From IMG/VR virus record IMGVR_UViG_3300030090_003432, positions 1-31,808 of that record: a DNA stretch of 31,808 nucleotides, one strand, 5' to 3'. Below, one piece after another: positions 1-17,887 of this stretch. Both the position numbers and the translations under genes were made by a program. The stretch's first letter is position 1. Each line of letters opens with the position of its first letter. This DNA comes from a virus. The notes beneath the pieces are model-generated. The model had not been told where the DNA came from. It worked only from the letters and a program-made list of their open reading frames with translations, and searched no databases.

Positions 1-2
1 CT

Positions 3-3000
3 AGAGTTCCAAGAAAAAAAGGTCAACATAGAGGTTCTAAATCACATTCAGATTTATATACAGATGAAAATCCAAAAGGCACAATAAAAGGTTTAAAGTT
101 TGCTACCGTTAAAGATGCTCAGGCATCAGTCAGTAAAATTAAAAATAGTGGTCGTTCACACGCTCATAAGATTCAAGCGGCTGTCGCTATGGAACAAAGA
201 GCACGAGAAATGGGTAAAACATCTCAAGCTGCTGTCTATCGTAGATATATCAATCAAATGAAAAAGAAGACAAAAAAGAAAAACGAACAAGGTTTAGGTT
301 CAAACAAAAAAGTTGTAGGTACGGATGACTACACGTTTGGACCTGATTGGATACCTACAAGTCTTGGACAACGTAAAAAAATGAAAAGACTACATAAAAA
401 AATAAATAGAAGTTTGAGAACAACAGAAGATATTCCATCACCGAGTCGTAAAGGTGTAAAAAAGATGAAACGTAAAGGACATAGTTCAGTTCCTTATGGT
501 AGTGGTTATAAAAAAGTAGATGAAGCGTTACCAAAAAAAGTTACAGATAAATATAAAAAATTAAAAAATAAACCAGAAACAGATGCTGGTAAAGATTTTT
601 CTCGACATCATAAATATTCAATGGCAGCTGATAAGATGGGAAGATTATCAGAACCAGACACATACGATTTTGATGATGATTATAAAGAAAAAGGAGGATG
701 GCAAAAAGAAAAAGACAAAAAGACAAAAGGATACGAACCAGTAAAAGAAGACAGAACTAAAATCAAAAAAGTAGTTGGTATCTATGGTGGTAGATTTCAA
801 CCATTTGGTCCTCATCACAAAAAAACCTACGAGTGGTTAAAAACCCAAGTTGACGATGCATATATCGTTACATCTAATCTAAAATCTTTACCAAGACACC
901 CAATGAACTTTGCAGAAAAAGTTCGTCATATGGTTAAAATGGGTATACCTAAAAATAAAATCATTATGGAAACGTCTCCATATCAAGCTAAAAATACTTT
1001 AAAGAAATTTGATGAAAAAACAACTGCAGTAATTTATATTTTTGGTAAGAAAGATGCTAATAGATTAAAGGCTGGAGCATACTTTGATGATTATAAAAAG
1101 AATAAAAAGAATATGGTTGGATATAGAGAACGTGGATATATTCTTACAGCACCACACGTTTCAGTTAAAGTCGGGGGTAAAGAAGTGAGTGGAACCGTAA
1201 TGAGACAATTACTTGGTTCACCTGATTATGAAAAAAATAGAAAAAAATTATTTAAAACATCTTTTGGATATTTTGACCAGGGAATCTATAATATGATGAC
1301 TAATAAATTTAAAAAGTTATTTGAGTCTTTTGATAATTTTCTTTCTAAAAATAATATACAAGATATAATAAAAGAAAGTAGTCTTACCATAGGTTCACCT
1401 GTTGACGACGGACCTCCTATTTTTTATAAAGGATTCAATGATTATGAAGTCGAAAGTAAAAAATGGATTGATTCAATGTATCAAGACACTGGTTGGGAAA
1501 TTATCGATTATATTTTAAGTCCTAACGCTATGAGTCCTAGTTATGATTATACACTAAAGTACTCGATAGTGCCCGCTGTATCTTTCTCAGATAACTCGAA
1601 ATACGAACAACACATAAATAACGTAGTGTTACGAAATGTTGGTTATGAAGTAGTAAAGTGGATGGGATTAGATGATAAAGGGGTACATACAGATGCACCT
1701 CCATTACCGGGAGCTGACGGTGAAACAGAAAATACAGATTTAAAAGAATCACAAGTTTTTTCGGTTGATTGGTGGACTCAAAAGTTATGGTTGGAAGAAT
1801 CAGAAGGTATGACATTAGAAGAGGGTGTCAAATTTGATAACTTCTTAAAACAAGTTAGTAAAGCGGCTAAACAACCTCTTGATAAAATTCGTAAGACAAT
1901 GATGAATAAGAATACTTTTTCTATTGCTAAATTAAATGATTTTAGTTTAGAAAAAGTTACTAAAAATGCTAAAAAAGGATTTCAGGCTTATCAAAGAATT
2001 ATAAATTATGTACCAGATAAAATAGCTGAAAAACTATCAAAAACAAAGTTCGGTCAAAAGAAAGAAAAAGGATTAAAAAAATTAGATAATTTTTTACAAA
2101 ATCATCCTAAATTGAAAAGAGTTATGGGACTTGGAGCGGCAGCAGCTGTAACATATGCTTGGACAAAGATGACTTTTATAGGTGACCCTGAATACGATTT
2201 AGATTTGTCAGCAGCAGCAACAGCAGCTGCTACAGGTGATGTTTCGTTTAGTGATTTATTCGCTGGTGAAATGGGTACAAAGTTTTTAATTTTGACAGCA
2301 GTGGGAGGTGCTACAGGATTGACAGCTCCTTATGTAAAACTATTAGGTAAAGCAGGAACGATGGCTGCAGGACTCACTTTCGGAGCAATTAGAGCTTATA
2401 AAAAAAGAAAAAAAGAAAAATTAGATAAACAAAAGAAAACAAAAGGTCCTGACATTGTTAAGAATCCCAATCCTCGAGGTCGAAAGAAAATGATTTCGAA
2501 ACAAAGTGCTGTTAGATGGGTATCGAAAAACAAAGGAGAGAAAGCTGCTAAAAAATATGTGAAGAGTTTATCAGAGATTATTAATTTAGATAACGAAGTA
2601 TCATTGATAATTGAAGGAGGAGCTTACGGACATATGGACCATCCTTTTGACGACAAAAATCTTACATTTTCAGATTTAAAGCAGATAATTATTAATGGAC
2701 TCGGTGGTAAATTAAACCGAGAAGATAATGTTACAGAGAAACTTGATGGTCAAAACTTAATGGTTTCTTGGGTAAATGGTAAATTGGTTACAGCTAGAAA
2801 CAAAGGTCAACTTAAAAACTTCGGAGCAACAGCAATGGACACAGCTGGTGTAGCATCTAAGTTCGCTGGTCGTGGTGATATAAAGAATGCTTTTGTTTTT
2901 GCTATGAAAGATTTAAGTAAATCTATTGGTAAGTTATCAGACGCTCAAAAAGAAAAAGTATTTGGTAATGGTAAACGATGGATGAATTTAGAGGTTATGT

Positions 3001-3836
3001 ATCCTAAAACAGCAAATGTAATTGATTATGATGTGGCAGAAATAGTATTTCATGGTACATTAGAGTATGATGAAAGTGGTACTGCAATAGGTCAACCAAA
3101 AGATTCAGCTCGTATGTTAGCTGGTATGATTAAACAAGTAAATCAAAATGTACAAAAAAATTATACAATAGGTAAACCTCAGTTTTTAACCGTACCAAAA
3201 GTACAAAATTTCGGTAAAAAGAAAAGAGGATATCTAAACCGACTAAATAAATTACAAAAACAATTTAATCTGAAAGATAATGATACATTAGCTAAATATC
3301 ACCAGTCATTTTGGGAAGAGTTTATATTCAATGCATCAAAACAATACAAATATAAGATACCGAATAAAGTTTTAGTCAATTTAACAAAGAGGTGGGCTTT
3401 CTTTGATAAGTCATATAAGATACCTACGATGAAAAAGGACATTAAAAACAAAAAATTTCTTGATTGGGCTCTCTCATTTGATAAAAATGACCATCAAAAA
3501 TGGGTAAAAGACAATATGAAACCTTTTGAAGTATTGTTTTTCGATGTAGGAGCTGAAATATTAAAAAATATAGGTGGATTTTTATCAGTATCACCAGATA
3601 AAGCAGTTCAACGTATCAGAAAAGATGTGATAAATGCTATATCAGTAGTGAAAAAGAGTAAAGATGTTAAAAAAATAGAAACTTTAAAGAATCAAGTTGA
3701 CAAATTAAATAAAATCGGAGGATTATCTTCGATTGTACCATCAGAGGGAATAGTTTTTAAGTATAAAGGTAAAACATATAAGTTTACAGGTGCTTTCGCA
3801 CCCATAAATCAAATTTTAGGGTTATTAAATTTTTAG
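3..3836 (+). CDS. Giant multidomain protein with two nucleotidyltransferase-type domains (5' partial)
   Basis: The frame is open to the left edge (it reads RVPRKKGQHRGSK before the first ATG at 189), so the N-terminus is missing. Numbering from that ATG: residues 196-340 look like a HIGH-type nucleotidyltransferase (NMN adenylyltransferase/cytidylyltransferase fold), with GRFQPFGPHH as the HxGH-like motif and VSGTVMR near 333 as the ISGTxxR-like motif. Residues 690-790 are Ala/Gly-rich and hydrophobic, possibly membrane-interacting. Residues 808-1215 resemble the covalent nucleotidyltransferase (DNA/RNA ligase) superfamily: KLDGQN (candidate nucleotidylated Lys851), LEVMYP near 935 as motif III, and EGIVFKYKGKTYKF near 1186 as motifs IV/V. 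The N-terminal part is Lys-rich. The substrate is unknown. The gene lies directly upstream of the packaging genes, and its stop codon overlaps the next gene's ribosome-binding site. The two domain families are inferred from motifs alone. Confidence 0.8.
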   Translation, partial: RVPRKKGQHRGSKSHSDLYTDENPKGTIKGLKFATVKDAQASVSKIKNSGRSHAHKIQAAVAMEQRAREMGKTSQAAVYRRYINQMKKKTKKKNEQGLGSNKKVVGTDDYTFGPDWIPTSLGQRKKMKRLHKKINRSLRTTEDIPSPSRKGVKKMKRKGHSSVPYGSGYKKVDEALPKKVTDKYKKLKNKPETDAGKDFSRHHKYSMAADKMGRLSEPDTYDFDDDYKEKGGWQKEKDKKTKGYEPVKEDRTKIKKVVGIYGGRFQPFGPHHKKTYEWLKTQVDDAYIVTSNLKSLPRHPMNFAEKVRHMVKMGIPKNKIIMETSPYQAKNTLKKFDEKTTAVIYIFGKKDANRLKAGAYFDDYKKNKKNMVGYRERGYILTAPHVSVKVGGKEVSGTVMRQLLGSPDYEKNRKKLFKTSFGYFDQGIYNMMTNKFKKLFESFDNFLSKNNIQDIIKESSLTIGSPVDDGPPIFYKGFNDYEVESKKWIDSMYQDTGWEIIDYILSPNAMSPSYDYTLKYSIVPAVSFSDNSKYEQHINNVVLRNVGYEVVKWMGLDDKGVHTDAPPLPGADGETENTDLKESQVFSVDWWTQKLWLEESEGMTLEEGVKFDNFLKQVSKAAKQPLDKIRKTMMNKNTFSIAKLNDFSLEKVTKNAKKGFQAYQRIINYVPDKIAEKLSKTKFGQKKEKGLKKLDNFLQNHPKLKRVMGLGAAAAVTYAWTKMTFIGDPEYDLDLSAAATAAATGDVSFSDLFAGEMGTKFLILTAVGGATGLTAPYVKLLGKAGTMAAGLTFGAIRAYKKRKKEKLDKQKKTKGPDIVKNPNPRGRKKMISKQSAVRWVSKNKGEKAAKKYVKSLSEIINLDNEVSLIIEGGAYGHMDHPFDDKNLTFSDLKQIIINGLGGKLNREDNVTEKLDGQNLMVSWVNGKLVTARNKGQLKNFGATAMDTAGVASKFAGRGDIKNAFVFAMKDLSKSIGKLSDAQKEKVFGNGKRWMNLEVMYPKTANVIDYDVAEIVFHGTLEYDESGTAIGQPKDSARMLAGMIKQVNQNVQKNYTIGKPQFLTVPKVQNFGKKKRGYLNRLNKLQKQFNLKDNDTLAKYHQSFWEEFIFNASKQYKYKIPNKVLVNLTKRWAFFDKSYKIPTMKKDIKNKKFLDWALSFDKNDHQKWVKDNMKPFEVLFFDVGAEILKNIGGFLSVSPDKAVQRIRKDVINAISVVKKSKDVKKIETLKNQVDKLNKIGGLSSIVPSEGIVFKYKGKTYKFTGAFAPINQILGLLNF

Positions 3837-8451: not shown

Positions 8452-9324
8452 ATGGCTCGCAAATTAAAGCATTCTAAAATAAAGAATACAAGTATTCTTT
8501 TTGAATTACTAACAAGACAAATTACAGCTGATGTTTTAGCTGGAAAAAGCACTAAATCAGTTAAAATAGTCAAGAAATATTTTAATGAAGAAACAGAACT
8601 AGGTAAAGAATTACAATTTTATCGTATTTTATCTGAAAAACATTATCACTCAGAAACAAAAGCCAGAGATTTGTTATCTGCAGTTGTTGAATCAAGAAAA
8701 AAACTTAGTAATGCAAAGTTACGTAATGAAAAATATAATTTAATCAAAGAAATAAAAGAGAATTACAACTCGACAGATTTTTTTAATGGTAGAATTACTA
8801 ATTACAGATTATTAGCAGCTATCTATAACACTTTTTTATCAGAAAGTGCTACTACCGTATCATTTAATCCGGAACAAACTACAAGTTCCAAACACACGAT
8901 TTTAGAACATATTACAAATAAAAAAATCACAACAAAACAAGTAAAAGATAAAATTTTAAAAGAGTATTCTCAAAACGACAAAGATTTGAGATTACTTACA
9001 TATCAAATTTTGGTAGATAAATTTAATACAAAATATAAGTCATTAAACGAATCTCAAAAAAATCTACTTAAAAGTTACATTAATAATATCAGTAATACAA
9101 ATTCATTACGTGAGTTTGTAAATATAGAAGTCAAAAAAATCGAAGGATTACTCGAAAAACACGTTGACCAAGTAAGTGATACAATCACAAAGATAAAATT
9201 GACCGAGTCTATAAATCAAATAGGTAATTTGACAAAAGGAAAAATTGTAAACGAAAAACAAGTTTTGACTTTAATGAGATATTATGAACTTGTTAAGGAG
9301 ATTGAAAATGTCCACTCAAATTGA
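8452..9324 (+). CDS. Helical protein of the portal-protease interval, function unknown
   Basis: I chose the ATG at 8452 (MARKLKHSKIKN) over the one at 8437 because GGAG at 8439-8442 then sits nine bases upstream, whereas it would lie inside the longer reading. The product is 291 residues, rich in Lys/Glu/Leu/Asn, with long predicted helices and no membrane segment. A FLSES site near 140 fits the gp21-type (L/I)xE pattern. In T4 this interval holds small core genes (67, 68), so a prohead-core role is plausible, but no recognisable domain is seen. Its end overlaps the next gene by 17 bases. Confidence 0.8.
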   Translation: MARKLKHSKIKNTSILFELLTRQITADVLAGKSTKSVKIVKKYFNEETELGKELQFYRILSEKHYHSETKARDLLSAVVESRKKLSNAKLRNEKYNLIKEIKENYNSTDFFNGRITNYRLLAAIYNTFLSESATTVSFNPEQTTSSKHTILEHITNKKITTKQVKDKILKEYSQNDKDLRLLTYQILVDKFNTKYKSLNESQKNLLKSYINNISNTNSLREFVNIEVKKIEGLLEKHVDQVSDTITKIKLTESINQIGNLTKGKIVNEKQVLTLMRYYELVKEIENVHSN

Positions 9325-9949
9325 ACGACTTAGAGCGTTAGTCCGAGAACTCATCAAAAAAGAATTAGAGGAAGTTTCTGTAACAGGAGCTATTGATGGT
9401 GGTGAAGGTCCTCCTAAAACTCCTTACGCATTCCAATCTAAACCTAAAAAGAAAAAAGATAAAGAAAAAGAAAAGAAAATAGCTAACGCAGCAGGATACT
9501 CAAAAGTATCTGAAGCTAGATTTGCTTTAGATATAAAAGATGAAGGTGGTGTGAAATTGACAATCATAGTTGACGCAGGTTCAGCAGGAGCGGCTAAAAT
9601 GAAAGTAGCTAGAAAACTCAAAGGTGGTGCTAAAAGTATATCCAATGTAAGGAGAGTTCAACCTGGTAAGGCTAAACAAGTTGATAAGAAACTTGAAAAT
9701 GTTAATGAGGGAAAGTATCACGATTATAGAAATGATGAATCTTTATCACCAAAACAAAAAATTGGATATTCAATGAGAGAAGTCAGAGATAAATTAAATG
9801 AATTAGACAGACTTGTCAAAATGAATGTCAGACTGAAGAATGAAGTAGGTGTTGATTCTACATCTTATTGGAAAAGAACACATTCAGCAATGAAAAAAAT
9901 TAGTGAAAGATTAGTAAAACTAGCTAATAAAGTTGGTCAACTTTACTAA
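9308..9949 (+). CDS. Basic protein with candidate capsid-targeting N-terminus
   Basis: I chose the ATG at 9308 because AAGGAG ends seven bases before it. An earlier ATG at 9284 lies inside the previous gene and lacks such a site. The product has 214 residues. The N-terminal helix of about 22 residues ends in ELEE followed by VSVTG, fitting a (L/I)xE prohead-protease site. Then come a Gly/Pro/Lys-rich linker (near 35-65), a likely small alpha/beta domain (FALDIKDEGGVKLTIIVDAG onwards) and a C-terminal helical region. It could be an internal head protein. No named family is recognised. Confidence 0.78.
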   Translation: MSTQIERLRALVRELIKKELEEVSVTGAIDGGEGPPKTPYAFQSKPKKKKDKEKEKKIANAAGYSKVSEARFALDIKDEGGVKLTIIVDAGSAGAAKMKVARKLKGGAKSISNVRRVQPGKAKQVDKKLENVNEGKYHDYRNDESLSPKQKIGYSMREVRDKLNELDRLVKMNVRLKNEVGVDSTSYWKRTHSAMKKISERLVKLANKVGQLY

Positions 9950-9969
9950 AAAATAAAACGGAGTTTATA

Positions 9970-10584
9970 GTGAAACAATTAATCGTAGATTATTTACCCT
10001 TTGAAATTAAACCTGAACAAATATCAGAATCCATTAGTGAAAATAATGGTAAATTGGTTGTTAGAGGAGTTCTACAAAGAGCTGAAGCTGAAAATCAAAA
10101 TGGTAGAATTTACCCTAAAGAGATTCTACATAGAGAAGCTAAAAAATATACAAAAGAATTTATTAAAGAACGTAGAGCTATGGGTGAGTTAGACCATCCC
10201 GATAGTTCAGTCGTGAATTTACAGAATGTATCTCACAACATTAAAGAAATGCATTGGGAAGGTGATAATCTATTAGGTACCGTTGAAGTGTTAAGTACAC
10301 CAAGTGGTAATATATTAAAAGAATTATTCAAGTCTGGTATCAAACTTGGTATCTCTTCTCGTGGTATGGGTTCAGTTGAAACCGTCAATGAGGATGACCG
10401 TCAAGTTACACAAGTACAACCTGACTTTGAACTTATAGCATTTGACTTTGTATCTAACCCATCTACTCACGGAGCCTTTATGTATCCAATGAATGAGTCG
10501 GTAGATAAAGATTTACCAGCAGGTAGAACTTGCGGAGAATATTGTAAAGTAGAAGCTATCATCAATGATATAATGAGAGGATAA
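9970..10584 (+). CDS. 21: Prohead maturation protease (gp21-like)
   Basis: This 204-residue protein starts at GTG, six bases after CGGAG. It matches the T4 gp21 prohead protease family (T4 gp21 is 212 residues). Early it has GRIYPKEIL. His76 lies in MGELDHPDS, the conserved catalytic-His context, and the nucleophile is Ser129 or Ser130 in LGISSRGMGS. LIAFDFVSNPST follows, as usual in this serine protease fold. It would act inside the prohead, cutting core and capsid proteins after (L/I)xE. An ISES site at 18-21 could be autoproteolytic. The C-terminal tail has CGEYC. Confidence 0.93.
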   Translation: MKQLIVDYLPFEIKPEQISESISENNGKLVVRGVLQRAEAENQNGRIYPKEILHREAKKYTKEFIKERRAMGELDHPDSSVVNLQNVSHNIKEMHWEGDNLLGTVEVLSTPSGNILKELFKSGIKLGISSRGMGSVETVNEDDRQVTQVQPDFELIAFDFVSNPSTHGAFMYPMNESVDKDLPAGRTCGEYCKVEAIINDIMRG

Positions 10585-10586
10585 AG

Positions 10587-11072
10587 ATGAAAATTTTAGA
10601 ATCATACAAAAAAATAGCAAAAAGTATGTTGACAGAACATGCTTGGGATAGAAAGTTCGGTGAACCTCTCCCAACATTAGCTGACGTAATGAATGAAGCT
10701 TCACAAGATGATGACGATTACGTACATATTGGTTACGGTAAATATAAAGAAAAAAATATGGTCGATGACCCACAAGCTCCAACCTATTCAAAAAATCCGG
10801 CAGGAGCATTTGTACTAGATAAAGAAGATGATAAAAAAGATTCAAAAGACGGTGATGATAAAGAAGCTCCTAAGGGAGCAGGTTTAGATTCTGATGATTT
10901 CGAAAGAGACTTCGAAGATGATGAGGACGCTAAGGCAGCTGCTTTCGCTGATATGGAAGATGAATTTGGTGATGATGATATGGACGAAGGTCACGGTAAA
11001 ATTATTACAATAAATGGAAAAAAATATAAACAAATCGAAAAGAAACCTATAGATGCATCTCACTGCTCTTAA
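10587..11072 (+). CDS. Acidic core-type protein with candidate capsid-targeting N-terminus
   Basis: This 161-residue protein starts two bases after the protease stop. Residues 1-17, MKILESYKKIAKSMLTE, form a short amphipathic helix ending in LTE, a candidate gp21 cut site. The middle (about 70-135) is highly acidic and Asp-rich, like head scaffold proteins. The C-terminus has HGKIITINGKKYKQ, which resembles HEGVIEIDGVKYAP in the scaffold protein at 14987, suggesting a shared small motif. A role as a minor core or internal protein is inferred from position, acidity and that motif. Confidence 0.75.
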   Translation: MKILESYKKIAKSMLTEHAWDRKFGEPLPTLADVMNEASQDDDDYVHIGYGKYKEKNMVDDPQAPTYSKNPAGAFVLDKEDDKKDSKDGDDKEAPKGAGLDSDDFERDFEDDEDAKAAAFADMEDEFGDDDMDEGHGKIITINGKKYKQIEKKPIDASHCS

Positions 11073-11090
11073 TAGGTCAGGAGTAATATT

Positions 11091-11425
11091 ATGAGTCAAC
11101 CCACACAAAAAATGGACAAATACAATAGGTCTGTCCAACATCAATGATTCCATCACGCAACTTGGGGGTCTCCTAAGTATAAGAATGAAGGAATAGGTGA
11201 AGTAACTTGGCATTCTCTAACAGAAGATGGGAAAGTCGAAGTTTGTAATATTAAATTTGGTGATAAACACTACAAAAATGTAAGTGTTGAACATCTTAAT
11301 CCAGTTAAAATACAAGAACATTCTCACAAAAGAAGTGGTAATGAACTTGATGATAAGAAAAAGAAAAAGAAGAAAAATGAAACGATTGATTTTAAAGACA
11401 CTTATAAAAGAATCGGTGGAAAATG
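11091..11425 (+). pseudogene. Intact-looking ORF interrupted by one in-frame TGA
   Basis: An ATG at 11091, seven bases after AGGAG, reads 18 codons (MSQPTQKMDKYNRSVQHQ) to a TGA at 11145-11147. The same frame then stays open for 92 codons (FHHATWGSPKYKN and on) to a second TGA at 11423-11425 that overlaps the next gene's ATG. No ATG, GTG or TTG occurs in frame after the first TGA, so the 3' part has no obvious start. Its composition (mixed alpha/beta residues, then a Lys-rich run near the C-terminus) looks coding. TGG to TGA would be a single-base change restoring a Trp. Candidates are a recent nonsense mutation, programmed readthrough or a sequencing error. Function is unknown. Confidence 0.7.
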
Positions 11426-11734
11426 AGTAAAAACTATACTGGCATGATGAATAAATGGAAAGATTGGAGACTAGACAAAGATACATCTCTAAAAATTTCA
11501 GAAGATAAAATCAAAACGGGATTTGCTGGATATGACAATTACTTTAAAACTATCGAAGGACATATGGTAAGTGTGGGTCGTAGTCTAAAGACTTTAATTA
11601 AAGATTTAGCTCAAGATACAAAAGATGGTGATGCTGATTACAAAAAACAAGTAAAAGAATTACAATCGTTCTATAAAAAATATGTGATTGAGATGGATGT
11701 AAAATTTAAGCAGTTTAAAAGGAAAAACACGTGA
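11423..11734 (+). CDS. Small helical protein of unknown function
   Basis: This 103-residue protein overlaps the stop of the interrupted ORF by ATGA and lacks a strong ribosome-binding site of its own, so it probably depends on translation of the upstream frame. It is Lys/Asp-rich, with aromatic residues near the N-terminus (MMNKWKDWRLDKD) and likely helices throughout. It contains no cysteine. No clear capsid-targeting N-terminus is seen. It lies in the core-gene interval and ends in a GTGA overlap with the next gene. Confidence 0.72.
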   Translation: MSKNYTGMMNKWKDWRLDKDTSLKISEDKIKTGFAGYDNYFKTIEGHMVSVGRSLKTLIKDLAQDTKDGDADYKKQVKELQSFYKKYVIEMDVKFKQFKRKNT

Positions 11735-12186
11735 TTAAACTTCAAGAATTAATCGAAGAAAATTGTCATTGTGGGGACTCTTGTTGTGAATCAAAAGAAC
11801 CTATGAATGAAAGTGTCGATGATTTAAAGAAAATTGTAGGTGAATTAGAGAAAGCATCTAAACTTCACGCCGGTCAATCGAAAGCATTAGCTAAAGCTTC
11901 TAAAATGCATGCAGGACAAGCTAAAAGAATACAATCACATCTTAGTGATATGGATGAATCTATTGTAGAGGGCCCTGACGACAGAAGATTTACAAAAGTA
12001 CAATTAGGTATGTTAATCAGACAAGAGGCAGAGTTCAGAAAAAGAATGCAAAAAATTGAACAAGGATTCTTGAGAGACCCTAACGAAGCTAATAAGAAAT
12101 TATCAAAGGCTATTCAGAAGTCTTATAAAGATAATGTAACTAAGTTTATGAGAGACGTTGTGGGTTACATTAAGAAAATGAAATAA
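11731..12186 (+). CDS. Candidate internal head protein with Cys cluster and HAGQ repeat
   Basis: This 151-residue protein starts at a GTG that overlaps the previous stop (GTGA). Residues 1-10, MIKLQELIEE, are close in form to the capsid-targeting sequence of T4 internal proteins and end in a (L/I)xE site. A CHCGDSCC cluster (Cys12, 14, 18, 19) follows immediately and could bind metal. Two copies of a KAS-LHAGQ/KAS-MHAGQ helical repeat lie at about 41-50 and 55-64. IVEG at 78-81 is a second possible cut site. The C-terminal half is basic and helical. The stop codon and next start share one base (TAATG). Confidence 0.75.
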   Translation: MIKLQELIEENCHCGDSCCESKEPMNESVDDLKKIVGELEKASKLHAGQSKALAKASKMHAGQAKRIQSHLSDMDESIVEGPDDRRFTKVQLGMLIRQEAEFRKRMQKIEQGFLRDPNEANKKLSKAIQKSYKDNVTKFMRDVVGYIKKMK

Positions 12187-13205
12187 TGCCTTCTGTATCT
12201 AAAGCTCAACAAAAGTTTATGGGTATTGTTCACGCATACAAAAAAGGTGATATACCTGCTAGTAAAGTGAGTAAAGCAGTTAAAGATGCTGCTAAATCAA
12301 TGAAAAAAAAGTCAACTAAAAAAATGGCTTCTACAAAACATAAAGGTCTACCTAATAAGGTGAGAAGTGAAAATATGAATGAAGACGGACATACAGACGT
12401 AGCTTCTATTGTTAGAAAGTTAAAAACTTCTGCAGAAGATATACGTGATATTTTCAACAAAATAAATTCAATGAGTGATGAAGATTCATTACCTTCTTGG
12501 TGGACTGATAAGATTACACTATCTGCTAACTATTTAAATAAAGCTCGTGATTTTATTCTAAATCCTACTGAAGGTGTCGATGAGGGTTTTGGAGGTGAGC
12601 TGACTGGTGAGGATAAAAAGAAATTCGAAAAAGCAAGAAAAGAAAATGCAGAACAACTTGGTTACAAATTGACAGGTACTTCAGATATAAAAGAATCCGT
12701 AAATGAAAGATATACACTTTACACAACTAATAAAATAGGTGACAAAGTAAAAAAAATTAAAAGTTATAGTTCAAGACAAGCCGCTGCAGTAGCGATGGGT
12801 AGACTTGTTAAAAACTTAGAAACAGATTATTTTCCTAAAAACGTTGATGGTTTGATGTATGTAAAAGAAGCATTTTCTTTAGGAGCTGATATGATACTAG
12901 GAGGTATAGCTTCCGTTGTTAAAAAAGCAGGTATGAGACCCAAGTCAGCTAAAATGATGGGTGGAGGATTCAAAGTCAGTAAAAGAGATAAAGTTGGATT
13001 TAAAATAGATGTTGAGATTCGTGGTCTTGATAAAAAGAAAACATTCCCACTACAATTTGAAACTGAAAGAGGTATGTTATACGTAGTTATCAAGAACAAA
13101 CCAATCAAATTAGGTAAATACACAATGGTTACACAAGCAGCTCAAAACTTGAAAAAAGTTGGAGCAGCTTTGATTGGTGATAAAAATGTTAAAAGGATAG
13201 CATAG
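12186..13205 (+). CDS. DUF3008-like N-terminus fused to a larger core-region protein
   Basis: This 339-residue protein starts in a TAATG overlap. Residues 1-58 (MPSVSKAQQKFMGIVHAYKK, then ASTKHKGLP) match the DUF3008 family as I recall it: small basic proteins found in phages and bacteria with no known function. Residues 60-135 are helical. IKESV near 169 fits a prohead-protease site. Residues 175-339 form a separate, probably alpha/beta region (RYTLYTTNKIGDKVKK, then GFKIDVEIRGLDKKKTF). Proteolysis could separate the DUF3008 part from the rest. The stop overlaps the GTG of the next gene by one base. Confidence 0.78.
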   Translation: MPSVSKAQQKFMGIVHAYKKGDIPASKVSKAVKDAAKSMKKKSTKKMASTKHKGLPNKVRSENMNEDGHTDVASIVRKLKTSAEDIRDIFNKINSMSDEDSLPSWWTDKITLSANYLNKARDFILNPTEGVDEGFGGELTGEDKKKFEKARKENAEQLGYKLTGTSDIKESVNERYTLYTTNKIGDKVKKIKSYSSRQAAAVAMGRLVKNLETDYFPKNVDGLMYVKEAFSLGADMILGGIASVVKKAGMRPKSAKMMGGGFKVSKRDKVGFKIDVEIRGLDKKKTFPLQFETERGMLYVVIKNKPIKLGKYTMVTQAAQNLKKVGAALIGDKNVKRIA

Positions 13206-13576
13206 TGAAGTTAGCTGTACTAGAAAATTTAATAAGAGAAGCCTTTGATAATGGATTTTTTGAAGAGGTTACCGAGGATATAATTAATGATGATAAAGAA
13301 TTTAATCATTTATTAAAAGCCTTTGTATCTGAACTACGTAAAAAAAGAGTTGTAAGAGGTAAAAAGTTATATAAAAAAACCGTTTGTCCTACAAATAAAA
13401 GATATGTCCCTGCTTTGAAAAAATGTGTTGTGAAGACAGCTGGTGAAAAGATGAGAAAAAGAAGAGCTATGCGTAGAGCGGCTATCAAAAAAAGAGGACA
13501 AATGGCTAAAATTATCAGAAAACGTAGAAAATCTATGAAGAAAAGAAAAGCTTTCGGATTGAGGCGAGGAAGATGA
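13205..13576 (+). CDS. Very basic small protein with candidate capsid-targeting N-terminus
   Basis: This 123-residue protein starts at GTG in a TAGTG overlap. Residues 1-12, MKLAVLENLIRE, end in a (L/I)xE site before Ala13. The middle is acidic. Two cysteines in CPTNKRYVPALKKC may bind metal or form a small loop. From about residue 77 on it is almost wholly Lys/Arg (for example RRAMRRAAIKKRGQ), which suggests contact with DNA. Cutting at residue 12 would release a histone-like peptide inside the head. This role is inferred from composition and context. It overlaps the next gene by ATGA. Confidence 0.78.
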   Translation: MKLAVLENLIREAFDNGFFEEVTEDIINDDKEFNHLLKAFVSELRKKRVVRGKKLYKKTVCPTNKRYVPALKKCVVKTAGEKMRKRRAMRRAAIKKRGQMAKIIRKRRKSMKKRKAFGLRRGR

Positions 13577-13914
13577 GTAAAGATTCAACATATAAAAACT
13601 TAATGAAGGAACTCAATGAAGCTCCTATCACCTCTCCTTCACAAATGGGTTTCAGTACACCTGAGGCTAAGCAACAAGTTGAACAAGATATTATAAAGAT
13701 GGGAAAGATTTTAGGTAAGGCATCACAACAAGTTGTTAAAACAATGATGGACGGAGTCAAAAGTAAAAAGTATGATGCTTTTGATTTACAAAGAGCAATA
13801 ATGTCAGGTCCTGTCAAAGATACTGGCACAGGTCAACGAGACTTAATGAGAGGACTTTGGAACCGCGTAAGAAGTGGATTCAGAAGATATTCTAAAAGAG
13901 GAAAACTGAGATAA
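13573..13914 (+). CDS. Small protein with candidate capsid-targeting N-terminus
   Basis: This 113-residue protein starts in an ATGA overlap. Residues 1-16, MSKDSTYKNLMKELNE, form a short helix ending in LNE before Ala17, again a T4-type cut site. A helical centre is followed by a basic C-terminus (GLWNRVRSGFRRYSKRGK) that could bind nucleic acid. It has no cysteine. It is the last gene before a candidate promoter. Function unknown, probably a head-internal protein. Confidence 0.75.
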   Translation: MSKDSTYKNLMKELNEAPITSPSQMGFSTPEAKQQVEQDIIKMGKILGKASQQVVKTMMDGVKSKKYDAFDLQRAIMSGPVKDTGTGQRDLMRGLWNRVRSGFRRYSKRGKLR

Positions 13915-13917
13915 CTT

Positions 13918-13925
13918 ATATTTAT
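13918..13925 (+). promoter_or_regulatory. Candidate late promoter octamer ATATTTAT
   Basis: An exact copy in the 34-base gap before the gene at 13949, in the context CTTATATTTATATATAC, 23 bases ahead of its ATG. Confidence 0.5.
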
Positions 13926-13948
13926 ATATACATTTAATGGAGACCAAA

Positions 13949-14632
13949 ATGTCTAAGAAAATAAAAATGAAAGATTTATTAAAAGAAAATTTTAGTGGTA
14001 CTATGATAGGTGGCCTTGTAACGACTCCGGCATCTAATCAAATTAGTATGTCTAAAATTGTAAAAGAAAAATACGGTGTAGAGGAAGAAGATAGTATTGA
14101 TGTGAAAGGTTTGACCAGTGAGTTAGCCACTTACAATAAACTAGGAGAGTCTATCTTTGGTGAATCAAACATTATGAAGATAGCTGAAAAACTAAGTTGG
14201 ATAGCTAATCAGGCTAAAGGACATACATTAAGTGAAACAGAAGATTGGTTTGACAAGATTACCGTAAACCGTAATATGAAAGAATTGACAGGTCTCTCAA
14301 AACAATTCAGTAAAATAGCTTCTGAAGCTAAAGGTCTTCAACAAAGAATGGGAGCACTATATGAAGATATGGGTAACATTCTTGGTCGTTATTATGATGT
14401 AGGTGAAGGACACGTAGACGGACACGATGTAGATGATGATATGACACCTGAGAAAGAAAAAGAGACAAAGATAGGTGAATACAATATAGATGAAGGTGAA
14501 TACGAGAAGTTCTTTCAAGCAGCTATGAAAAAGTTTGGTATCTCTTCACCAGATGAATTAGAAGATGATAAGAAAAAAGAATTTTTTAATTACGTTGATA
14601 AAAACTATAAAGCTAAAAAAGAGACCGATTAG
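13949..14632 (+). CDS. Core-region protein with candidate capsid-targeting N-terminus
   Basis: I chose the ATG at 13949 because GGAG at 13939-13942 lies six bases before it. The ATG at 13937 would place that site inside the gene. The 227-residue product begins MSKKIKMKDLLKE, ending in a (L/I)xE site before Asn14. Long helices follow (about 50-150), then an acidic His/Asp-rich linker (GEGHVDGHDVDDDM) and a C-terminal module, KKFGISSPDELED onwards, that looks like an independent small helical domain. It probably belongs to the prohead core. Its stop overlaps the AGGAGG of the bS21 gene. Confidence 0.78.
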   Translation: MSKKIKMKDLLKENFSGTMIGGLVTTPASNQISMSKIVKEKYGVEEEDSIDVKGLTSELATYNKLGESIFGESNIMKIAEKLSWIANQAKGHTLSETEDWFDKITVNRNMKELTGLSKQFSKIASEAKGLQQRMGALYEDMGNILGRYYDVGEGHVDGHDVDDDMTPEKEKETKIGEYNIDEGEYEKFFQAAMKKFGISSPDELEDDKKKEFFNYVDKNYKAKKETD

Positions 14633-14640
14633 GAGGTTAT

Positions 14641-14826
14641 TTGATTTACATAAAGGTTCATAAGAACAACGTTGAAAAGGCTATCAGTAAATTAAAAAAA
14701 CAAGTTAAAGAAACTAAATTGATGTTAGAGTTGAGAGAGAATGAGTTTTACACGAAACCATCAGCTCGTAAACGTGAAAAAAGAGCTAAAGCTCGTTTAA
14801 GACAGAAAAAACAATCTTTTAGTTAA
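14641..14826 (+). CDS. rpsU: Ribosomal protein bS21 homologue
   Basis: This 61-residue protein matches bS21. It opens MIYIKVHKNNVEKAI, the usual IKVxxNE-like strand and helix, and then has EFYTKPSARKREKRA, the diagnostic EFYxKPSxxRK signature, followed by a basic helix. Its length is typical of small bS21 proteins. bS21 sits on the 30S platform near the anti-Shine-Dalgarno end of 16S rRNA and aids initiation. The start is TTG, four bases after a perfect AGGAGG, and no ATG is in frame upstream. Other marine phages are known to encode bS21. Here it sits inside the late head module, which suggests a supply of bS21 late in infection. Confidence 0.9.
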   Translation: MIYIKVHKNNVEKAISKLKKQVKETKLMLELRENEFYTKPSARKREKRAKARLRQKKQSFS

Positions 14827-14844
14827 GTTTTTTTTCTATTGTAT

Positions 14845-14852
14845 ATATTTAT
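14845..14852 (+). promoter_or_regulatory. Candidate late promoter octamer ATATTTAT
   Basis: An exact copy in the 160-base gap between bS21 and the scaffold gene, in the longer palindromic context TATATATTTATATATG. It would give the scaffold mRNA a leader of more than 100 bases. Confidence 0.5.
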
Positions 14853-14866
14853 ATATGTACAAAAAA

Positions 14867-14977
14867 ACACTACGGCTATTTTGCCACCTTGTAGTGTACT
14901 CATAAATGTTAATCACATTATAGTTCCCAATAACTATATTAATTCCAAACCGATGATTATTAATTAATCATTAGGAG
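14867..14977 (+). promoter_or_regulatory. Structured leader of the scaffold gene: two hairpins before the ribosome-binding site
   Basis: ACACTAC (14867-14873) can pair with GTAGTGT (14891-14897), enclosing a small GGC/GCC hairpin (14874-14885). No T-run follows, so it is not a simple terminator. A second hairpin pairs ATGATTA (14953-14959) with TAATCAT (14965-14971) and ends one base before AGGAG (14973-14977) of the gene at 14987. Both pairings are seen directly. Control of translation or mRNA stability is inferred. Confidence 0.4.
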
Positions 14978-14986
14978 AAAAAAGTA

Positions 14987-16198
14987 ATGGATGACTTATT
15001 AAAAGAAGCCATTGCAGATGCAAAAGCAGTTCGTGAAACCGCTCTTGAAAACGCTAAAATCGCTTTAGAAGAAGCTTTTACTCCTCGCCTACAATCTATG
15101 CTTTCTAAAAAAATTCAATCAGAGATTGAAGTTGAAGAAGGTGAACACGAAGACGATGAAGAAGAAGCAGAGGAAGGATACCATGAAGATGATATGGACC
15201 CAACCGATGATGAACCAGCAGACGAAGGTATGCATGGTGATGAAGACGATGAGGATAAAGAGGAAGGCGCTCACGAAGGCGTAATCGAAATCGATGGTGT
15301 CAAATATGCTCCTGTAGTATCTGAAGAAGATGATGAAGACGAAGAAGATGCTGAAGAAGGAATGCATGAAGACGAAGTAGTCGAAGGTGAAGATGAAGAT
15401 GAAGATGATATGGATGAAGAACTTGACCTAGAAGCTGTACTTCGTGAATTAGAAGAAGACACGGTTGATGAAGTAGAGGAGCCAGTCGAAGAAGGTGAAG
15501 ACAAAGAAGATGATGAAAAGAAAGATGAAGCTGTTGAAGTAGTAGACGAAGACGTTGAAGAAGTTGACGAGGACGTTGAAGAAGTTGATGAAGAAGTAGA
15601 TGCCACAACAGGTATCGGTTCTTCAGATAACAAAAAAGGAACAGCTGACAAATCTTCAGGTATCGGAACACCAGATAAAGCTAAACATACTGAGTCTGTT
15701 GAAGATTCAAAAGATGTTGTTGCTGAAGGTGAAGAAGAAGTTGAAGAGGAAATCGACCTTGATGAAATCATCGCAGCTCTTTCTGAAGAAGAAAAAGATG
15801 ATGAAAAGAAAGATGAAGCTGCTGAGTTGAAATCTGAACTTGACGAGCATCGCAATGTCGTTAAATATCTAAGGTCCAAATTGAATGAAGTTAATTTGTT
15901 AAATGCAAAGCTTTTATTCACAAACAAACTTTTCCGTTCATTTGGTTTAACAAATGACCAGAAAATGAAAGTTGTGGAGAACTTTGATAGAGCACATAAC
16001 TTACGTGAAGTTAAATTAGTTTACTCTACTTTAGCTGAATCATTTGGAACAAAAACAAATAAAACCGAAATCAAAGAATCAAAAGGTTCAGCTTCAAAAG
16101 CTGTAGCTTCAACAAAATCCGAAAAGCAAGAACAAGAAGTGATTGCTGAAGGTTCAGAGTTGAGAGACAGATTTAAGAAGTTGGCTGGTATTCTTTAA
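14987..16198 (+). CDS. 22: Prohead core scaffold protein (gp22-like, acidic)
   Basis: This 403-residue protein directly precedes the major capsid gene, as gene 22 does in T4. The N-terminus MDDLLKE ends in a (L/I)xE site. Residues 45-270 are extremely acidic and repetitive: five EGxH units (51-54, 64-67, 80-83, 94-97, 125-128), tandem EDVEEVD units near 188-205, two KKDEA units, and paired helices LDLEAVLRELEE and IDLDEIIAALSEE. The C-terminal 120 residues are a coiled-coil-like conserved part (LRSKLNEVNLLNAKLLF onwards), ending VIAEGSELRDRFKKLAGIL with another cut site after IAE. It would form the removable core of the prohead. Assignment rests on position, composition and C-terminal form. 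Confidence 0.85.
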   Translation: MDDLLKEAIADAKAVRETALENAKIALEEAFTPRLQSMLSKKIQSEIEVEEGEHEDDEEEAEEGYHEDDMDPTDDEPADEGMHGDEDDEDKEEGAHEGVIEIDGVKYAPVVSEEDDEDEEDAEEGMHEDEVVEGEDEDEDDMDEELDLEAVLRELEEDTVDEVEEPVEEGEDKEDDEKKDEAVEVVDEDVEEVDEDVEEVDEEVDATTGIGSSDNKKGTADKSSGIGTPDKAKHTESVEDSKDVVAEGEEEVEEEIDLDEIIAALSEEEKDDEKKDEAAELKSELDEHRNVVKYLRSKLNEVNLLNAKLLFTNKLFRSFGLTNDQKMKVVENFDRAHNLREVKLVYSTLAESFGTKTNKTEIKESKGSASKAVASTKSEKQEQEVIAEGSELRDRFKKLAGIL

Positions 16199-16225: not shown

Positions 16226-17887
16226 ATGTCTAAAAATCTTGGAACAATCGAAAAGTTGATGGATGGATATAATCCACACCGTCAACGCATGGAAGAAACC
16301 CGTGGATTGGTCAAGAAGTGGGAACCAACCGGACTTTTAGAAGGTTTAAATACAGAACACAAAACTCACGGAATGGCAGTATTGCTTGAGAACCAGGCAC
16401 GTCAGTTAATTGACGAGTCCTCTCATACAGGTACTTCCGCTAATTCTGAAGAGTGGTCAGGTGTTGCTCTACCATTGGTAAGAAAAATCTTTGGTGAATT
16501 AGCAGCACAGGAATTTGTTAGTGTTCAGCCTATGAATCTTCCTTCCGGTCTGATTTTCTATCTTGACTTTAAATACGGTACTGCCCAAGCTGGTTTCGCT
16601 AAGAATCAAGAAGTATTTGGTATAACTTCTGCTTCTGGCGACCCATCTCAGGGTCTTTATGGTGCTGGTACATTTGGGTATTCCGCAAATGACTACACCG
16701 GTACTGCACAAGCAGTTGCAGCCTTAACAGGTTCAACTACTTGGTCAGATGTTGACTTTGAACCAGACTTGTCTGCTTCAAATGCTTCATCAGCAATCGG
16801 TACACAATTAAAAACTTTCGATATCCCAGTATCTACTTTGTCAAATCCTGACTTGAGTGGTGCAAGGGCTTTCGAAATTACAGGTTCAACAGCATTTACT
16901 GCTTTCTATCCTGCTTACACCAAAATTCTTGACGGTGTAGACGGAAACGAAGTTGACCCAGATAGTGGTGCAGCTACTCACATTCGCTTTATTGTACAAG
17001 AAGCTTCTGTACCTGACGGTGGAACAGCTTCAATATTGTATCATAAGCAGCCAACCGATACAACTCGTGGCGACTTTGAAGCAACAGGAACACAAGTTGA
17101 TGCTAATCCTGAAACTGATATTGATATACCTGAAATCGACATCGCAATGCGTTCAATCGCAATCGTTGCTAAAACTCGTAAGTTGAAAGCTGTTTGGACT
17201 CCTGAGCTTGCTCAAGACCTTAACGCTTATCACTCAGTTGATGCAGAAGCTGAACTTACTTCACTACTTAGTGAGTACGTATCAATGGAAATCGACCTTG
17301 AAATCCTTGATATGATTCGTTTAGCTGCTAATGCTAAGACTGAGAGATGGTCAGCAAGAGTTGGATTTGAGTTCGATTCAGATTCTTCACTATTTACAGA
17401 GTCCTCAGCTAACTCTAATGCTTACACAAAAGGTGAGTGGTTCCAAACTCTTGGAAACAAAATACAAAGTGTAAGTAACGCAATTCATCAAAAGACTCTC
17501 AGAGGTGGTGCTAACTTTATAGTAGTATCTCCTGAGACAGCAACAATCCTTGAATCTATTCCTGGATATGCTACAACTTCTGATGGTGATGCAAACAATA
17601 AATCCTATGCAATGGGTGTACAGAAAGCTGGTTTATTAAATAACCGCTTTACCGTATATAAGAACCCATACCAGTTCGAGAACACCGTTCTTGTTGGTTT
17701 CAGAGGAAGCAATTTCTTAGAAACTGGTGCTGTGTATGCTCCTTATGTACCGTTGATAATGACACCTCTTGTATATGACCCAAAGAACTTTACTCCACGT
17801 AAAGGTGTAATGACACGTTACGCGAAGAAGATGGTTAGACCAGAATTCTACGGTAAAGTTATTATTGCTGACGTTAACTACGTTTAA
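16226..17887 (+). CDS. 23: Major capsid protein (gp23-like)
   Basis: This 553-residue protein (T4 gp23 is 521) starts eight bases after GGAG. T4-like landmarks are KWEPTGLLEGL near the N-terminus, VSVQPMNLPSG, KTRKLKAVWTPELAQDLNAYH, DAEAELTSLLSEYVSMEID, NFIVVSPETATILES, and near the end APYVPLIMTPLVYDPKNFTP. LIDE (61-64) before Ser65 aligns with the T4 gp23 maturation site after residue 65, so the first 64 residues are probably removed by gp21. It forms the icosahedral shell. The gene stands as its own unit between a structured spacer and a strong terminator, which fits very high expression. Confidence 0.96.
   Translation: MSKNLGTIEKLMDGYNPHRQRMEETRGLVKKWEPTGLLEGLNTEHKTHGMAVLLENQARQLIDESSHTGTSANSEEWSGVALPLVRKIFGELAAQEFVSVQPMNLPSGLIFYLDFKYGTAQAGFAKNQEVFGITSASGDPSQGLYGAGTFGYSANDYTGTAQAVAALTGSTTWSDVDFEPDLSASNASSAIGTQLKTFDIPVSTLSNPDLSGARAFEITGSTAFTAFYPAYTKILDGVDGNEVDPDSGAATHIRFIVQEASVPDGGTASILYHKQPTDTTRGDFEATGTQVDANPETDIDIPEIDIAMRSIAIVAKTRKLKAVWTPELAQDLNAYHSVDAEAELTSLLSEYVSMEIDLEILDMIRLAANAKTERWSARVGFEFDSDSSLFTESSANSNAYTKGEWFQTLGNKIQSVSNAIHQKTLRGGANFIVVSPETATILESIPGYATTSDGDANNKSYAMGVQKAGLLNNRFTVYKNPYQFENTVLVGFRGSNFLETGAVYAPYVPLIMTPLVYDPKNFTPRKGVMTRYAKKMVRPEFYGKVIIADVNYV

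Follow-up and report, generated by a model that had tools for sequence, protein, structure and literature searches.

A recurring N-terminal tag on unrelated proteins around the prohead protease of uncultured T4-like phages: a candidate capsid-targeting sequence

Introduction

Here, we examined a group of short N-terminal tags encoded around the prohead protease gene of an uncultured marine virus (IMG/VR record IMGVR_UViG_3300030090_003432, positions 1 to 31,808; the whole of this 31.8-kb stretch is referred to as the window). The window is a fragment of a T4-like myovirus. By its prohead core serine protease, gp21, it is closest among named phages to Microcystis phage Mel-JY01 (61%), followed by Flavobacterium phage immuto (52%). 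A first-pass annotation had noticed that at least six genes at this locus begin with an amphipathic helix ending in (L/I)xE, and had proposed that they share a capsid-targeting tag and form one set of packaged and injected proteins. We relate these tags to their counterparts in related phages, to the bodies that they precede and to the known system of phage T4.

Results

The head locus contains the following genes (↓, candidate cleavage site; Peptidase_S77 is the family of gp21).

4955: TerL
6550: portal
9308..9949, + strand: gene B, helical N-terminus MSTQIERLRALVRELIKKELEE ending ...KKELEE before VSVTGAIDGGEGPPKTPYAF; probable core/head protein, not cargo
9970..10584, + strand: gp21 prohead core serine protease (Peptidase_S77), GTG start; PF03420 110 bits, phrog_207 9e-55
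10587..11072, + strand: gene C, class 2 tag MKILESYKKIAKSMLTE, shared module HAWDRKFGEPLPTLADVMNE with a second candidate site, acidic body; candidate cargo
11091-11426, + strand: UGA-containing gene between C and D
11423..11734, + strand: gene D, class 3 tag (W+xWRL...ISE↓DKI), site shifted to residue 28; candidate cargo
11731..12186, + strand: gene E, GTG start, class 1 variant MIKLQELIEE, CHCGDSCC, second candidate site PMNE↓S; candidate cargo
12186..13205, + strand: gene F, N-terminal DUF3008 module (about 60 amino acids, aa) ending SENMNE↓DG, variable body after it; PF11450 8e-11
13205..13576, + strand: gene G, GTG start, tag MKLAVLENLIRE, strongly basic histone-like body; weak phrog_3503 head scaffolding match
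13573..13914, + strand: gene H, MSKDSTYKNLMKELNE, class 4 tag (S-x-x-x-YKxLMxE), basic C-terminus
13949..14632, + strand: gene I, tag MSKKIKMKDLLKE↓NFSG, kept in relatives and in Mel-JY01 (VIAE↓NVSG there); probable core protein
14987..16198, + strand: scaffold gp22-like, starts MDDLLKE↓AIADA, 13 further [LIVM]xE↓[ASGND] sites; highly acidic
16226..17887, + strand: major capsid protein gp23-like, candidate propeptide site QLIDE↓SSHTG; homologues ISE↓ANRTG, VSE↓ANVTG

The six N-termini named in the first-pass annotation (B 9308, C 10587, E 11731, G 13205, H 13573, I 13949) all lie where it had placed them, and its descriptions of the bodies were accurate: C is acidic (43 D+E, 24 K+R), G is basic (41 K+R, 12 D+E) and E carries CHCGDSCC. 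A seventh [L/I]xE N-terminus, MDDLLKE, opens gp22 (14987). In gene D (11423) LKISE ends at residue 28, where relatives have WRLSE↓DKI, and gene F (12186) starts with DUF3008 and reaches NMNE at residue 66. Within the first 25 residues, [LI]xE occurs in 7 of the 9 genes from B to gp22 as opposed to 2 of the 18 other window genes (Fisher P=0.0012), a count that leaves out gp21, though it also carries [LI]xE. The tagged window proteins are 103-339 aa long and have no multi-enzyme architecture; Pfam and PHROG scans recognised no effector domain in their bodies, and gave no match to IPI-III or Alt.

To place these genes in context, 80 IMG/VR records of relatives were fetched, and the locus comparisons cover 81 loci. 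Since these loci are related and orthologues were counted, the percentages characterise this collection of loci and should not be read as independent trials, and start sites taken from a simple open reading frame (ORF) caller add noise. Near the N-terminus, [LI]xE is found in 62% of 286 genes between gp21 and gp22, compared with 30% of 389 flanking genes and 17.5% of shuffles. With a stricter KLKxxLxE-like tag the figures become 103/286 and 1/389. The gp21-gp22 segment in relatives is a cassette region, and its genes open with one of a few recurring tags.

The chief tag, class 1, reads MIKLK(D/N/E)(I/L)(L/I)xE and is 10 residues long. Classes 2 (MKIL(E/K)SYKKIAKSMLTE), 3 (M..YKxMMDKWKDWRLxE) and 4 (MSKKSxYKKLMxE) extend over 13-22 residues, class 5 is SHRKFK..LLE, and the DUF3008 module forms a tag-like start that ends in NMNE, LMSEN or LFEN; D and the DUF3008-type F are longer. 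As an unselected test set we took genes near gp21 picked solely for a MIK start. In these, position 4 is L/M in 96%, position 7 is hydrophobic in 97%, position 8 is L/I/M/V in 96%, and position 10 is Glu in 88%, with D, K or H in a few. The tag has a sharp boundary at this Glu, information content in the same set being 2.9 bits at position 10 but only 0.9 bits at position 11. Among 111 aligned tagged proteins, I2, K3, L4 and E10 are invariant, in part because of how the proteins were selected. Position by position, the conserved residues 4, 7, 8 and 10 are those that are critical in T4 IPIII, in which the first 10 residues suffice as a capsid-targeting sequence (CTS), residues 4 and 7 acting in targeting and residues 8 and 10 in processing (PMC9026906).

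The usable structure model, that of the L166 cargo, places residues 1-27 outside the folded body, with a predicted local distance difference test score (pLDDT) <50; the model of the L320/L247/L006 cargo reached a pLDDT of only 46. The idea that the L166 cargo is an ADP-ribosyltransferase was dropped, its predicted structure (pLDDT 74) having no significant PDB match.

Some proteins carry further modules near the tag. Right behind it, WDRKFGEPLPTLxxVMxE is shared by different bodies (C 10587, E-like genes, L063, L073, L044, L066 and others), and in other phages NMRRFGTKNLxE occupies the same place (L192, L193, L196, L206); these modules may give rise to a free peptide or serve in a further docking step. 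In gene E (11731-12186, residues 12-27) and its relatives, a Cys-rich C-x-CGxxCC segment lies between two candidate cleavage sites, behind two different tags, and might be freed as a small peptide.

The bodies behind the tag are largely unrelated. The class 1 DNA pattern was found in at least 120 stretches in IMG/VR, and among the matches listed 280 tagged proteins, stripped of their first 14 residues, fell into 104 single-linkage clusters (blastp E<1e-3), a number that would drop if distant relationships below blastp sensitivity exist. Several bodies have recognisable Pfam domains, including NUDIX (4e-14), RimK ATP-grasp ligase (1e-32), Zeta_toxin-like kinases (2e-10), RNase_T exonuclease (7e-11), GNAT (2e-7), M23 (3e-22) with Phage_lysozyme2 (5e-29), and Hydrolase_2; in L183, four tagged genes stand in tandem, one of them a NUDIX gene. 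Tags and bodies are also exchanged. Relatives combine the E-type body with either a class 1 or a class 3 tag (L072/L062 bodies 87.5% identical), the L047/L013 bodies are 90.8% identical behind different tags, a gene H-like body follows a class 5 tag or, in L190, a class 1 tag, and the bodies after the DUF3008 module differ. In the homologue comparison proposed in the first-pass annotation, the N-terminal tag is conserved while the bodies vary. We also considered recent tag copying within a genome, of which there is little sign (codon identity of tags 0.69 within and 0.61 between genomes). A T4-like late promoter (TATAAAT) was not seen on the coding strand within the cassette.

An ADP-ribosyltransferase-like R-S-E motif (VYRG/A...STTLNP...ESE), recalling T4 Alt, is present in a gp21-gp22 gene of Mel-JY01 (L082 10395-11561) and behind a class 1 tag in L147/L158. 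For L147/L158, this motif and two weak PDB profile hits (E 0.2, 0.67) are suggestive only of an ADP-ribosyltransferase, as is a below-cut-off ART-PolyVal match for L324.

The class 1 pattern is nearly restricted to T4-like phages bearing gp21. In unique gp21 loci, which total 0.90 Mb, it has 16 matches, or 17.8 per Mb. Prokaryotic genomes totalling 257 Gb yield about 60 matches, or roughly 0.23 per Gb, a ~70,000-fold lower density; most of these could not plausibly start an ORF, and of those that could, several sit on contigs that also carry T4-like head genes. Eighteen tagged records hold 37 matches to the pattern and 0 to its reverse. Portal is present in 12 of them and gp21 in 11, the twelfth record stopping about 2 kb past portal, and the 6 without portal and gp21 are as expected of fragments. 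A 484-kb uncultured phage has two matches. None of the window tags exactly matches the strict DNA pattern used in these scans, E and I being close variants.

In the records behind L156 (G017), L163 (G001) and L142 (G011), the portal genes contain long in-frame insertions, the open frames measuring 1440, 1021 and 982 aa, and a 367-aa frame of G001 holds a split gp21 match; these features are intein-like.

The tagged genes differ in how well they are kept. Homologues of gene B are found at the same place in Mel-JY01 and immuto, with the (L/M)xE site kept before xVTG/STTG, and gene I has a homologue at the same place in Mel-JY01. For both genes an (I/L/M)xE site matches, though the residues in front of it differ. 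Because of this matching position and site, B and I are probably core proteins rather than effectors, and the tags on B, I and gp22 would be ordinary core-protein cleavage sites. Genes C, D, E, F, G and H are present in some close relatives and missing from others, G being seen in the closest only, and are for this reason likely cargo. The single set proposed in the first-pass annotation should be corrected accordingly, some tagged genes (B and I, probably core, and the scaffold gp22) not being cargo.

The last ~45 residues of gene I (14490-14629, YEKFFQAAMKKFGISSPDELEDDKKKEFFNYVDKNYK) match genes annotated as DNA ligase in Tenacibaculum phage pT24 and Vibrio phage phiKT1024, as well as unnamed proteins of Vibrio and Pseudomonas phages, and are a putative mobile C-terminal module. 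Upstream of TerL, window positions 1-3836 hold a 1277-aa ORF with a weak cytidylyltransferase-like segment (PF01467, below cut-off). Its G002 homologue opens with a GSGKS P-loop domain, like tagged Zeta-like bodies, and the ORF is possibly a multi-domain injected protein.

The gene between C and D may be more surprising than the tag itself. On the + strand, 11091-11426 reads MSQPTQKMDKYNRSVQHQ-UGA-FHHATWGSPKYKNEG..., with an in-frame TGA at 11145-11147. This TGA is identical in 34/34 loci, and UGA is also present in three homologues further removed (identity as low as 34%), whose frame is open upstream. On both sides differences pile up at third codon positions (0.16/0.09/0.34 and 0.22/0.16/0.43), and all but one of the aligned homologues have no start codon directly after the UGA. 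A covarying 7-pair hairpin (11160-11178) starts about 15 bases past the first base of the UGA; 97.3% of its cells are paired, against 69-70% when slid by one, and in L389, L424, L425 and L167 the stems differ yet still pair, the loop region having GG, mostly GGUC. In comparison with E. coli fdhF, this arrangement resembles a bacterial selenocysteine insertion sequence (SECIS). Where this gene has HxUGA, cyanophage proteins related to its downstream domain (profile match 97%) have HxC, in an alignment of low confidence at that point. An Rfam search on the gene gave no meaningful match, and no phage selenocysteine tRNA scored above cut-off in 14 records. Overall, selenocysteine is a good candidate for the UGA and, in our judgement, its probable meaning, stimulated readthrough being the rival.

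Discussion

A common targeting or propeptide tag on otherwise unrelated bodies, as first suggested from the window alone, is strongly supported by our comparisons: the tag is kept while bodies vary, tags are swapped, and conservation stops at the Glu. The link to an S77 protease adds further weight, as does the agreement with the positions that are functional in the T4 CTS. We consider it very probable that the tags are T4-type capsid-targeting sequences cut by gp21, serving both targeting and cleavage. In the mechanism that we propose, the tag would bind the prohead core (gp22, gene I and others) during head assembly through its hydrophobic side, made up of positions 4 and 7 in the main class, and so bring each tagged protein into the prohead. 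After closure of the shell, gp21 would cut behind the position-10 Glu (P3 = L/I/M, P1 = E) and release the body within the head. The conserved members B, I and gp22 would build the core, and the exchangeable ones (C, D, E, F, G and H, with dozens of other genes in relatives, enzymes included) would be cargo, probably delivered with the DNA. That at least some tagged bodies are injected is likely given the T4 precedent (internal proteins, Alt) and the enzyme bodies in relatives.

Several observations weigh against this proposal. The class 1 DNA pattern was found in none of the named cultured phages tested (Mel-JY01, immuto, C48C1, pT24, GR7B, RM378, Peetri). In other genomes, tagged genes often lie a long way from gp21, the 160-kb record G003 having six class 1-like ones in several places, and tagged lysozymes or M23 enzymes could function at lysis instead of riding in the head. 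Some window tags (C, D, H) differ from the main class and are linked to it by position, ending and exchange only. Packaging, cleavage by gp21, injection and effector function are what we infer, with cleavage and presence in the virion resting on likeness to T4.

Alternatively, the tagged proteins could all be scaffold or core parts that are cut up and expelled at maturation, without delivery to the host. The conserved core-locus genes B, I and gp22, the many internal [LIVM]xE sites in gp22 and several bodies, and the weak head-scaffold match of G would fit such an account; in relatives, however, the same tag fronts folded enzymes (NUDIX, RimK, exonuclease, GNAT, lysozyme) that have no obvious scaffold role and differ from phage to phage, and we regard it as unlikely. 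It is more doubtful still that the tag is an uncut signal that docks cargo permanently in the head, its Glu kept for helix capping or binding. A few tags do have D, K or H at position 10, and in T4 an Asp there stops processing while still allowing targeting (PMC9026906). Yet conservation ends at the Glu, the tag shares a hydrophobic P3 and a variable P2 with T4 gp21 sites, and the candidate sites of the major capsid protein, gp22, B and I obey the same rule. Finally, the N-terminal motif could have arisen by chance or as a by-product of Glu-rich helices, given that 30% of control genes have [LI]xE alone somewhere in their first 25 residues; a 10-residue tag that stands on ~100 unrelated bodies among the matches listed, on 1/389 flanking genes and almost nowhere in bacterial genomes makes this barely credible, and for class 1 these sequence comparisons refute it.

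Returning to capsid targeting with cleavage by gp21, we lean, with some reserve, towards a broader view: in a large, mostly uncultured clade of T4-like phages, one 10-residue label may serve to load and inject unrelated proteins, ~100 or more in number and in many cases enzymes, and phages may trade this repertoire through tag/body swaps. Injected proteins are known for few model phages because they are small, variable and without a common domain. If the view is correct, the label predicts first-minute host-takeover and counter-defence proteins straight from metagenomes; as it outlasts changes of body, the injected set of uncultured phages could be listed from sequence and tested by proteomics. 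It would also provide a second, independent CTS for comparison with that of T4, and ready-made packaging tags for protein delivery.

Among known systems, the closest is the CTS of T4 IPI-III and Alt, likewise an N-terminal tag of 10-20 residues with an L/I-x-E end, an S77 protease and bodies that differ between phages (PMC9026906). T4 gp21 cleaves after L/I-x-E, and the CTS has been proposed to let T4-like phages take in various proteins (PMC9026906). The present tags differ in their sequences (MIKLKxLLxE and the other classes), in the ~100 unrelated bodies behind a single tag among the matches listed, in the recognisable enzymes and in the post-tag modules (WDRKFGEPLPTLxxVMxE, NMRRFGTKNLxE). 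In the DarB/Dar antirestriction system of P1, an N-terminal signal also takes a large protein into the head for delivery, but the Dar N-termini gave no consensus (PMC9024508), which is explicit here. Similarly, in the inner-body and ejection proteins of phiKZ and SPN3US the prohead protease cuts many inner head proteins after x-x-E, and in SPN3US an N-terminus is common to two paralogues (PMC5694885, PMC9026906); their propeptides, however, are mostly >100 residues, the phiKZ motif is S/A-x-E, and no common short tag has been reported. Polyvalent proteins, MuF fusions and virion-packaged ART/Nudix enzymes are likewise injected phage enzymes inferred from gene context (PMC5512222, PMC9503650), there by head-domain fusion or proximity, whereas here a short detachable label sits on separate proteins, also far from head genes. 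Polyvalent proteins moreover string numerous domains along a single long chain, unlike the tagged window proteins. Text searches of the open-access literature found no report of these tag sequences. In conclusion, internal proteins borne by a CTS are of a known kind, and what is new is the consensus in an uncultured clade, the number of bodies, their enzyme content, the tag/body exchange and the post-tag modules.

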